A program made the translations under genes and the position numbers. A DNA stretch of 38,484 bases from positions 1 through 38,484 of the forward strand of contig PFFX01000049.1 in the NCBI GenBank assembly GCA_002783385.1, in the 5' to 3' direction. The notes below the pieces were generated by a model. It was not told the DNA's origin. It did not search any database and was given only the letters and a program-made list of their open reading frames with translations. This stretch comes from Rhodobacterales bacterium CG15_BIG_FIL_POST_REV_8_21_14_020_59_13. GTDB taxonomy: Bacteria; Pseudomonadota; Alphaproteobacteria; Caulobacterales; Maricaulaceae. The stretch's first letter is position 1. Each line of letters starts with the position of its first letter. Below are positions 3,067 through 8,874 of the stretch, piece after piece.

Positions 3067-3687
3067 ATGACACTGCCGGATTATGACCCCTTGCCGCTGA
3101 CAGTCAGCGATCTGTCGCTGGAACGTGGCGGTATTCCGTTGATATCCGGACTGTCGTTGCGCGTCGAGCCGGGCGAGGCGCTGGTGCTTCTCGGCCGGAA
3201 TGGTGTGGGCAAGACGACATTGTTGCGGGCGCTTTCCGGGGTTTTGCGGCCGGTGTCCGGCGATATCCGTTACGGCGACACGCCCGCCATCAAGTCTGCC
3301 CCGGCCATTTGCGCATTTCTGGGGCATGACAATGCCTTGAAGCCGGATGAGAGCCCGCGCCAGTCATTGGCCTTCTGGGCCGCGCTTTCGGGAAGGAGCG
3401 CAGATATCCCGGGTGCGATGGCCTCTATGGGGCTGAAAGCGCTGGCTGACCGGCCCTCGCGGCGGCTGTCGCAAGGCCAGAAACGGCGCGCAGCACTGGC
3501 GCGCATTCTGGTCCAGAACCGGCCGGTCTGGCTGCTGGATGAACCGGCAGCGCCGCTGGATGGCGAGGGACGGGAAAAACTGTCCGCCACTGTCACCGCC
3601 CATCGTGTCCGCGGCGGGCTGGTGATCGCCGCCACGCATCAGGCGCTGGACTGGCCGGATGCTCGCGTTCAGGAGCTGACGCGATGA
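3067..3687 (+). CDS. ccmA: Cytochrome c maturation ATPase CcmA
   Basis: ATP-binding subunit of the CcmABCD complex. ATP hydrolysis by this complex drives release of haem-loaded CcmE during c-type cytochrome assembly at the inner membrane. About 206 residues, the usual family length. Visible motifs are Walker A (LLGRNGVGKTTLL), the ABC signature region (RRLSQGQKRRAALARIL) and Walker B (VWLLDEPAAPLD). ATG 3067 is preferred over an upstream in-frame start at 3007, which would add 20 unconserved residues and cover the 3032-3045 palindrome; no strong Shine-Dalgarno sequence supports either. The stop overlaps the ccmB start by 4 bases, so the two are probably translationally coupled. Confidence 0.93.
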   Translation: MTLPDYDPLPLTVSDLSLERGGIPLISGLSLRVEPGEALVLLGRNGVGKTTLLRALSGVLRPVSGDIRYGDTPAIKSAPAICAFLGHDNALKPDESPRQSLAFWAALSGRSADIPGAMASMGLKALADRPSRRLSQGQKRRAALARILVQNRPVWLLDEPAAPLDGEGREKLSATVTAHRVRGGLVIAATHQALDWPDARVQELTR

Positions 3688-6170: not shown

Positions 6171-6688
6171 ACTGGCTCCGGCTTGTGCCCGTCATTGTTT
6201 TGTTCGGACTGGCCGGCGTTCTGGCTCTGACGCTTTTAACCCGGAGTGACAGCGGCCAGACAGACCGTCTGATCGGAGAGAGGGTGCCGGATTTTGAACT
6301 GGACGCGCTGGACGGCCATCCCGGTTTTACGCCGTCCGGCCTGACAGGTCAGCCCTATCTTCTGAATGTCTGGGGATCCTGGTGCCCGCCGTGTGAGGTC
6401 GAGCATCCGGTTCTTGTCGATCTGGCGCAGGCGGGCGTGCCGATTTATGGTATTGCGTGGCGTGATAGCGATGATAATGCCAACGCCTTTCTGGCCCGAA
6501 TGGGGAATCCGTTTTCCGGTATCGTCCTCGACCCCTTTGGCGCGGCAGTGATCGAGCTGGGGGTGACGGGTGCGCCGGAGACCTTCGTGGTCGGCGCAGA
6601 TGGCGTGATCCGGGCGCGATGGGCCGGGCCATTGACCGATGATGTCGTGCGACGGGCCATTCTGCCCGCGTTTGAGGATGGCCGCTAG
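6167..6688 (+). CDS. ccmG: Periplasmic thiol:disulfide oxidoreductase CcmG/DsbE
   Basis: 173-residue membrane-anchored thioredoxin-fold protein that keeps apocytochrome c haem-binding cysteines reduced. An N-terminal hydrophobic anchor (about residues 5-25) precedes the thioredoxin domain; the active site is GSWCPPCEVEH with cysteines 73 and 76. The later segment GAPETFVVGADG contains the cis-proline-like GxPETF motif typical of DsbE. It ends the visible ccm operon: ccmE, ccmF, ccmH and ccmI are not in this window. Its last bases overlap by 4 the 3' end of the convergent MarR-type gene. Confidence 0.92.
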   Translation: MNWLRLVPVIVLFGLAGVLALTLLTRSDSGQTDRLIGERVPDFELDALDGHPGFTPSGLTGQPYLLNVWGSWCPPCEVEHPVLVDLAQAGVPIYGIAWRDSDDNANAFLARMGNPFSGIVLDPFGAAVIELGVTGAPETFVVGADGVIRARWAGPLTDDVVRRAILPAFEDGR

Positions 6689-7248
6689 GCGTCCTTGTCC
6701 TTCTTTTTCTTTTTGGCCTGTTTTTTGGCCTTTTTCTTGGCTTTCTTTTTGGCCTTTTTCTCGGCGTCTTTCAGCTTTTTCAGCTCGGCCTTGGCTTTAG
6801 CCTCATCCTCCTCGATCGTCATCGCAATGCGGCGCAGCGTGACGAGGAAGCTGGCGCGCTTGTTCTTGGGCAGAGAAGACAGAATGGCATCATCAGCCAG
6901 ACGCGCCCCGGTCAGGGCGCGATCGTAAATGCCTTGGCCGTCATCGGTCAGGAAAATGGCATTGGCCCGCGCATCGCCAGCGACCGCTTCGCGCCGGATC
7001 AATCCCTTGATGGCCATGCGGGCGACCAGCTCGGCCAGCGTCGAGCGGTCAATGCCGGTTTCTCTCACCAGATCGGTCTGCGTAAGGCCCTCTCTCGCGG
7101 CCGTCGATGCCAGAACGGCGAATTGACGCTGGGTGAGCTTGTCCCCGGATGACAGATTCTTGGCAAAGCGCTCGGCAGCGAATTGCTGGGCGCGATGCAG
7201 GAGATGACCGGGTGATTCCGACAAATTGAATGTCTTGTCGCCGCCCAT
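6685..7248 (-). CDS. MarR-family regulator with a polylysine C-terminal tail
   Basis: 187 residues. The winged-helix region (about residues 38-105) shows the MarR pattern: LTQRQFAVLASTA, then GLTQTDLVRETGIDRSTLAEL as the helix-turn-helix, then a wing around DARANAIFLTDDG. Such proteins usually act as dimeric, ligand-responsive repressors. ATG 7248 is firmly supported by GGAGGAG with 7-base spacing; an in-frame GTG at 7269 overlaps that site. The C-terminus is odd: 19 of the last 31 residues are lysine, including AKKKAKKKAKKQAKKKKK, a histone H1-like tail absent from typical MarR proteins. A 7+7 inverted repeat upstream (7300-7320) may be its own operator. Ligand and targets are unknown. Confidence 0.85.
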   Translation of the reverse strand: MGGDKTFNLSESPGHLLHRAQQFAAERFAKNLSSGDKLTQRQFAVLASTAAREGLTQTDLVRETGIDRSTLAELVARMAIKGLIRREAVAGDARANAIFLTDDGQGIYDRALTGARLADDAILSSLPKNKRASFLVTLRRIAMTIEEDEAKAKAELKKLKDAEKKAKKKAKKKAKKQAKKKKKDKDA

Positions 7249-7299
7249 GATCACTCTCCTCCGGCTCACGGATTTGAACAGCTTATCGCAAGAGTGTCA

Positions 7300-7339: not shown

Positions 7340-8008
7340 TCAGGCGGGTTCCGCGGGAGCGGCAGTTTCCTCATCATCTTCGTCATCGGGCTGATGCCTG
7401 AGTGCGATCGGAATATTCGCCAGTGCAAAGATGAAGGTCAGCGCCATGATGCCCAGCTTGCCATTCGCCCAGACGCTTTCGCTCCAGGCCAGGCCGGGGA
7501 ACCAGCGGGCACTCTCGACGACGACCGAATCATTGATGTGCCGCCACAGGAATTCATTAATGAGAGCGAGGATCTGGAAAAACAGCGCCCAGCGGACGGC
7601 CAGAATCCACCAGATCCGATCGGGCAGGGTGAATATGGAGCCGAAAAGGGCTTTCCAGACATTATAGCCGAAGGCGAAACTGCCAAGGATGGCGAAAGAG
7701 TAGAGCAGATTGATAATGGTCGGCTTGATCTAAGCGAAAATCGGATCCTGCAGCCAGATGGTCAGCCCGCCGAACGATAAAACGATGACCGCCGAAACCA
7801 CCAGCATGGGCGGGAAGCGCTTTTGCACGATGGCGGCATATCCCAGCGCCAGGGCAATACCGGCCATGAAAACACCGGTGGCCCAGTAAATGGCTTGATC
7901 ACCGGCAAAATTACGGCCGATATTATAGACCAGTATGAAGGCGATGACGGGACCGACATCGGTCAGCAATTGTGCGCCCTGTCCTGCGGTTTTACGTGCC
8001 TGGCTCAT
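7340..8008 (-). pseudogene. yciB: Septation/inner-membrane protein YciB (IspZ) split by an in-frame TAG
   Basis: From ATG 8008 (GGAG lies 9 bases upstream) the frame runs 92 codons to a TAG at 7732-7730, then continues in the same frame for 129 more codons to TGA at 7342-7340. The joined 222-residue product has YciB length and its usual pattern of membrane spans. Around the stop it reads GGLTIWLQDPIFA-stop-IKPTIINLLY; E. coli YciB has the DETFIKWKPT pattern there, so the stop sits where a lysine is expected. AAG to TAG is a single-base change. The downstream half is clean: aromatic-rich spans, RHQPDDEDDEE tail, no frameshift. Options are a very recent nonsense mutation, a base-calling error, or suppression. 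YciB affects cell-envelope integrity and septation; its precise role is not settled. Confidence 0.88.
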
Positions 8009-8028: not shown

Positions 8029-8874
8029 TCAACCAACCTGAAGCAATACGAGGCCTGCGGCCAGAAGGATTGCCAGAAGCGTGCGTTTTAATCCAAACGG
8101 TTCTTTCAGAATAAGGGCAGCGAGTATCGCGCCAAATACCACCGAGGTCTCGCGCAGGGCGGCCATCGGCCCAATCGCTGCAATGGAAAAGGCAAACAAG
8201 GCAAAACCGTAAGATGTTGCCCCCAGAACGGCAGCAGGTGCAGCGCTGCGAAACTGCTGCCGGGCCAGATCCGGCCAGCGCCGTCCGCGCCGGACAAGCG
8301 CCATGGCAAGAATTGGCAAGGCGGTCATTAAGGAAAACCACGCCAGATAGGACAGAGGACTGCCTGCCGCCCGCACACCGGAGGCATCATTGACTGAGTA
8401 GAGTGCGGTCATCAGCGCGGCGAGGGTGGCAAATGCCAGTGCAATGACTTTCGGCACCTTGGTTCGATCCGGCCAGGCAAAGCCGATGAGTGTTGCGGAG
8501 GCCAGCGCCAGCCCGCCGATCTGCAGCATGGACAGGGCTTCACCCAGAATGAGGAAAGCAAAGAAAGCCGCCAAAGCCGGGGCGGCACCGCGCATGACAG
8601 GATAGACCAGATTCATGTCGCCGCGATCAAAGGCGGAGATCATCGACATCTGGAAGACGAAATGAAGGCCCATACCCATGATCAGAAAGGGCCATGCCTC
8701 CGCGGGCGGGGGTGGCAGGAGGAAGAGAAGCGGTACAAAGAGCACCGCACTCGTCGACATCATCACCGAACGGAAGACCAGCTTGTCGGTTGAGGATTTG
8801 GTCAGCATGCCCATCACCGCATGGGTCATGGCTGAGCCAAGCATGGCCGCCGGGCCGATGAGTTCAGGTGTCAC
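8029..8874 (-). CDS. EamA/DMT-superfamily permease
   Basis: 281 residues with about ten hydrophobic segments in two similar halves, the layout of EamA (drug/metabolite) transporters; the second half ends with the typical ETSVVFGAILAALILKEPFG. Substrates in this superfamily range from amino acids and nucleosides to drugs and cannot be predicted here. The start is GTG 8874, overlapping the ftsY stop by 4 bases (GTGA), so translation is coupled to ftsY. It sits between ftsY and yciB in the dapF-mtaB-ftsY operon, where I recall yciB usually following ftsY more directly. Confidence 0.85.
   Translation of the reverse strand: MTPELIGPAAMLGSAMTHAVMGMLTKSSTDKLVFRSVMMSTSAVLFVPLLFLLPPPPAEAWPFLIMGMGLHFVFQMSMISAFDRGDMNLVYPVMRGAAPALAAFFAFLILGEALSMLQIGGLALASATLIGFAWPDRTKVPKVIALAFATLAALMTALYSVNDASGVRAAGSPLSYLAWFSLMTALPILAMALVRRGRRWPDLARQQFRSAAPAAVLGATSYGFALFAFSIAAIGPMAALRETSVVFGAILAALILKEPFGLKRTLLAILLAAGLVLLQVG

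Follow-up and report, generated by a model that had tools for sequence, protein, structure and literature searches.

A single in-frame TAG interrupts an otherwise undecayed yciB reading frame in one draft alphaproteobacterial genome

Results

The yciB reading frame of the genome analysed here is interrupted by one in-frame TAG, which is unique among the relatives examined, and selective constraint is unrelaxed on both sides of it. We lean, somewhat beyond even chances, towards a recent nonsense mutation in the yciB gene of this lineage, or of the strain that dominates the assembly, with loss of the gene's function. The frame lies in the window, i.e. the whole stretch of DNA analysed, which corresponds to bases 1 to 38,484 of the 43,852-base contig C41. 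The assembly consists of 173 contigs totalling 2.32 Mb, with 92.74% completeness and 0.88% contamination, and our guess is that it is a metagenome-assembled genome. Judged by its best named matches, Hyphobacterium indicum 2ED5 and Hyphobacterium sp. DHS20C06, it probably belongs to the genus Hyphobacterium.

The interrupted frame

The frame runs on the minus strand from 8008 to 7340: an ATG at 8008-8006 is followed by 92 sense codons, the TAG at 7732-7730 (codon 93), 129 further codons and a TGA at 7342-7340, the layout described in the first-pass annotation. The interrupted, ispA/ispZ-like frame as a whole (7340..8008) matches the Pfam family PF04279 over its full length with 126.5 bits and one TAG inside. 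The two halves, 7733..8008 (92 codons) and 7340..7729 (129 codons plus the TGA), also exceed the PF04279 (IspA) cut-off of 28.7 bits separately, with 59.2 and 60.0 bits, and their matches nearly abut, covering profile positions 3-73 and 76-175 of 176. Owing to the TAG at codon 93, the gene lacks one continuous frame over the family length. Scored singly, both halves miss the NCBIfam equivalog cut-offs, with 44.6 and 61.5 bits for TIGR00997 (cut-off 165.2) and 59.5 and 87.9 bits for NF001323 (cut-off 196). The 25 residues before the stop are 96% identical, and the 25 after it 92% identical, to the intact YciB of a sister genome of the same genus (hereafter G003), from which we conclude on sequence grounds that this is not a chance open frame. 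A profile search of the assembly returned no second PF04279 copy.

If the stop acts normally, the first half is the sole product expected. The first in-frame ATG past the stop is codon 188, which leaves 35 residues, and the second half has no in-frame GTG or TTG; the first-pass annotation had likewise noted that no ATG comes early enough for a separate second product. That the two halves function as separate proteins is therefore practically negligible as an explanation: each half alone does match the PF04279 family, but the second has no in-frame ATG, GTG or TTG before codon 188, and a separate second-half product was rejected for want of a usable start.

Both neighbouring genes, also on the minus strand, have intact frames in the list of open reading frames. 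Upstream lies a predicted EamA-family transporter (8029..8874; PF00892, 56.1 bits) and downstream a predicted MarR-family regulator (6685..7269; PF12802, 51.2 bits). A promoter and terminator scan of the yciB region gave no promoter-like site. The minus strand carries six terminator-like sites between 7586 and 8748, all of them inside the EamA and yciB frames, where 2.5 are expected from shuffled sequences.

The stop position and the gene among relatives

We searched 60 genomes for YciB, our own included, and obtained a match in 56 (55 relatives); the 30 best loci of those matched were aligned, again with our own (29 relatives). At the position of the stop the 29 aligned relatives carry Tyr in 20 cases, Phe in four and Lys in five. 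Intact YciB proteins were found for six relatives of the same genus, all with Tyr, encoded by TAT or TAC, at this position. They come from six of the seven other genomes of the genus; the seventh, G004, which is 69% complete, gave no YciB match. This comparison, proposed in the first-pass annotation as a check, corrects one of its details: the lysine expected there is not the residue of close relatives, and the postulated change from AAG to TAG finds no support in the six same-genus codons.

A PF04279 match was found in 125 of 137 genomes of the family, with an internal stop listed solely in the genome of the window. A PF04279 gene is present in 94 of the 95 family genomes with a completeness of at least 90% and a contamination of at most 5%. 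By these sequence comparisons, almost every genome of the family thus has yciB, and among those examined only this assembly carries the stop.

Several individual cases were noted along the way. An apparently shared TAG in three relatives (G019, G021 and G023) turned out to be the gene's own terminal stop drawn into the alignment, and was discarded. One TAG is also listed for the G055 match, which spans query positions 30-219 and lies outside the aligned loci; it may or may not be of the same kind. The genome G028, 98% complete, is without a PF04279 match. In G071 the match covers only PF04279 positions 2-74, ending near the position of the window's stop, possibly at a contig end.

Selection on both sides of the stop

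For the loci L003 and L004 (85% DNA identity), which represent the two closest genomes, the dN/dS ratios are 0.040 and 0.050 in the part before the stop, falling to 0.018 and 0.021 in the part after it. The corresponding values before and after the stop are 0.107 and 0.047 against L005, and 0.057 and 0.034 against L006; some of the dS values underlying these ratios approach or exceed saturation. The downstream half therefore shows strong purifying selection without relaxation, no weaker than that on the upstream half.

This undiminished constraint means that a real stop would be very young. From five nonsynonymous changes at 270 sites we obtained a rough 95% upper bound on the unconstrained time of about 7.5% of the lineage's own branch, a figure that assumes zero constraint after the loss and equal branches, with dS near saturation. 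A sequencing error leaves the same trace as a young mutation. We give considerable weight, short of even chances, to the reading in which the organism's yciB is intact and a single base of the assembly is wrong, for example through low coverage or reads of a minor strain. An intact gene would fit both the complete lack of decay around the stop and the near-universal presence of yciB. The draft is also fragmented, with its 173 contigs, and one false stop in the roughly 104,600 codons compared below needs just a low error rate.

Background frequency of internal stops

The evidence against such an error comes from the frequency of broken genes in the two sister genomes. Genes predicted in 1.6 Mb of G003, chosen by their codon usage, were compared with 809 kb of the genome of the window, and the reverse comparison was made as well. 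Here, 15 of the 329 genes matched (104,586 aligned codons) show at least one stop away from their ends. In most of the 15 the part upstream of the stop is short or lacks coding character, pointing to over-extended starts. We then applied a filter for coding-like sequence, set after seeing the table: 30 codons or more on either side of the stop, with third codon positions accounting for at least 55% of differences. Two of the 329 genes pass it: yciB (79% and 78% before and after the stop) and a 571-residue gene at locus L136 (63% and 69%). In the reverse direction stops appear in six of 310 G003 genes (100,193 codons), and two pass the filter, L217 (58% and 69%) and L203 (77% and 67%). The clearest coding signal of the four belongs to yciB.

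The number of internal stops is thus the same in both genomes (2/329 versus 2/310), which speaks for a background of ordinary nonsense mutations, and an excess of broken genes is not seen relative to the sister genome. The other three cases all involve TGA. Locus L136, on contig C33 of our own genome, has two in-frame TGA codons near 2904 and 2982 relative to the 571-residue G003 gene, and in G003 the loci L217 (near 5930) and L203 (near 5540) carry TGA where our genome has Trp, with coding-like flanks.

The comparison also flagged frame breaks, in three genes of this genome and five of G003. Of ours, two are neighbouring paralogues that match one another, and the third shows a weak match of 50-68% identity. 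None of the three is thus a clear indel error; this too argues against a poor consensus. In G003, two of the breaks belong to one pair of neighbouring paralogues and the others lie on L226, L160 and L227. A published table gives 56 pseudogenes in what is presumably the Hyphobacterium column, the order of columns being deduced (PMC7661000); if so, gene disruption would be no rarity within Hyphobacterium.

TAG as a terminator and read-through of the stop

Amber read-through was the third reading in the first-pass annotation, besides recent loss and consensus error; the latter two both stand as candidates, and the use of TAG in this genome speaks against read-through. TAG ends 195 of the 663 genes predicted in the 809 kb examined (29%), comparable figures in G003 being 454 of 1,343 (34%). 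For 87 TAG-ended genes with an orthologue of at least 65% identity, 85 end within 15 codons of the end of the G003 gene; the exceptions are yciB and a gene at L105 17987-18313, whose match is 68% identical. A search for a suppressor tRNA, also proposed in the first-pass annotation, gave no CTA anticodon among the 35 tRNA genes found, a set that is incomplete (an Ile tRNA with anticodon gat, for instance, is missing from it). Folding of the RNA around the stop is no stronger than in shuffled sequences (z 0.53), so that a structured read-through signal is not seen. Recoding of TAG was ruled against on the normal termination of the 85 genes and the lack of a CTA tRNA among the 35.

We therefore consider it very unlikely that read-through of the TAG, whether by means of a suppressor tRNA, a weak release factor RF1 or near-cognate decoding, yields some full-length YciB. 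The equal constraint on the downstream half would be predicted by long-standing read-through as well, but no relative keeps a TAG at this position, and there is hence no sign of a long-standing read-through site.

A further point in favour of read-through is that RF1 (prfA) is absent from the assembly, while seven of the eight genomes of the genus have a match over the cut-off. The RF1 model TIGR00019 scores 477.3 to 496.7 bits in the seven other genomes, relative to a cut-off of 423.25. In this assembly no match exceeds the cut-off and the best reaches 222.7 bits. That match resembles the weaker, RF2-like second TIGR00019 match present in six other genomes of the genus (247.1 to 265.4 bits), and is presumably RF2.

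At first the absence of RF1 from a genome with an internal TAG seemed a striking coincidence, and we now attribute it to a probable gap where contig C119 begins. A G003 stretch of 4,044 bases that includes prfA was compared with our genome, 40 of the 73 candidates being scored. Among these, the stretch matches only from its base 3509, which corresponds to base 1 of C119, apart from two pieces of 99 and 52 bases elsewhere in the genome. In the G003 stretch prfA ends at base 2553, and C119 thus starts 956 bases downstream of it. Because the contig begins just downstream of the expected place, prfA probably lies in the gap, which is the simplest account of its absence. It is highly improbable that the lineage has lost or weakened RF1 and tolerates a leaky TAG, with yciB as an early gene whose internal TAG is decoded as an amino acid.

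Overall we find no sign of an unusual genetic code and no support for read-through, be it through recoding or through suppression, in a draft whose tRNA and release-factor sets are incomplete.

Discussion

When a gene that is intact in relatives carries a single stop and no further decay, the commonest cause is a recent nonsense mutation, followed by an error in base calling or assembly. For a recent mutation speak the intact Tyr of the six same-genus proteins, the presence of a stop in one of 125 family genomes, the lack of decay and the lack of a second copy. Against a real loss stands the retention of yciB in 94 of the 95 good-quality family genomes, given which a loss is unexpected. We infer that the cells themselves carry this base.

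Under the recent nonsense mutation that we prefer, a single base substitution would have turned a conserved Tyr codon of yciB into TAG, recently, in this lineage or in the strain dominating the assembly. Ribosomes would then stop after 92 residues, with about 40% of the Pfam domain made, and the truncated product would presumably be inactive, so that the YciB function would be lost.

The finding is ordinary: one stop codon in one draft genome carries little weight by itself. If the stop is real, a gene kept in nearly every complete genome of the family can be lost, and the strain is a natural test of the role of YciB in a marine alphaproteobacterium. YciB of E. coli acts with the lipoprotein DcrB in the upkeep of membrane fluidity, according to PMC9487459, which cites Mychack and Janakiraman 2021; the title of the cited work, which speaks of synthetic lethality between YciB and DcrB, implies that E. 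coli survives when YciB alone is lost. The case of prfA also indicates that, when a release factor is missing from a draft genome, contig ends should be checked before a new genetic code is proposed.

Of the known systems, amber recoding shares with our case a TAG inside a conserved frame and a draft without RF1; on the other hand, TAG is a normal terminator here and a suppressor tRNA was not found. The gene resembles YciB/IspZ, the 'intracellular septation protein A' (PF04279, TIGR00997), in that both halves exceed the Pfam cut-off and it has a single copy and a full-length match; it differs in the TAG interruption and in that neither half reaches the NCBIfam equivalog cut-off. An ordinary nonsense pseudogene would have the same properties as this one, namely one substitution, no further decay and a background frequency as in the sister genome, with the difference that the gene hit here is nearly universal in its family and that the base is known from the assembly alone.
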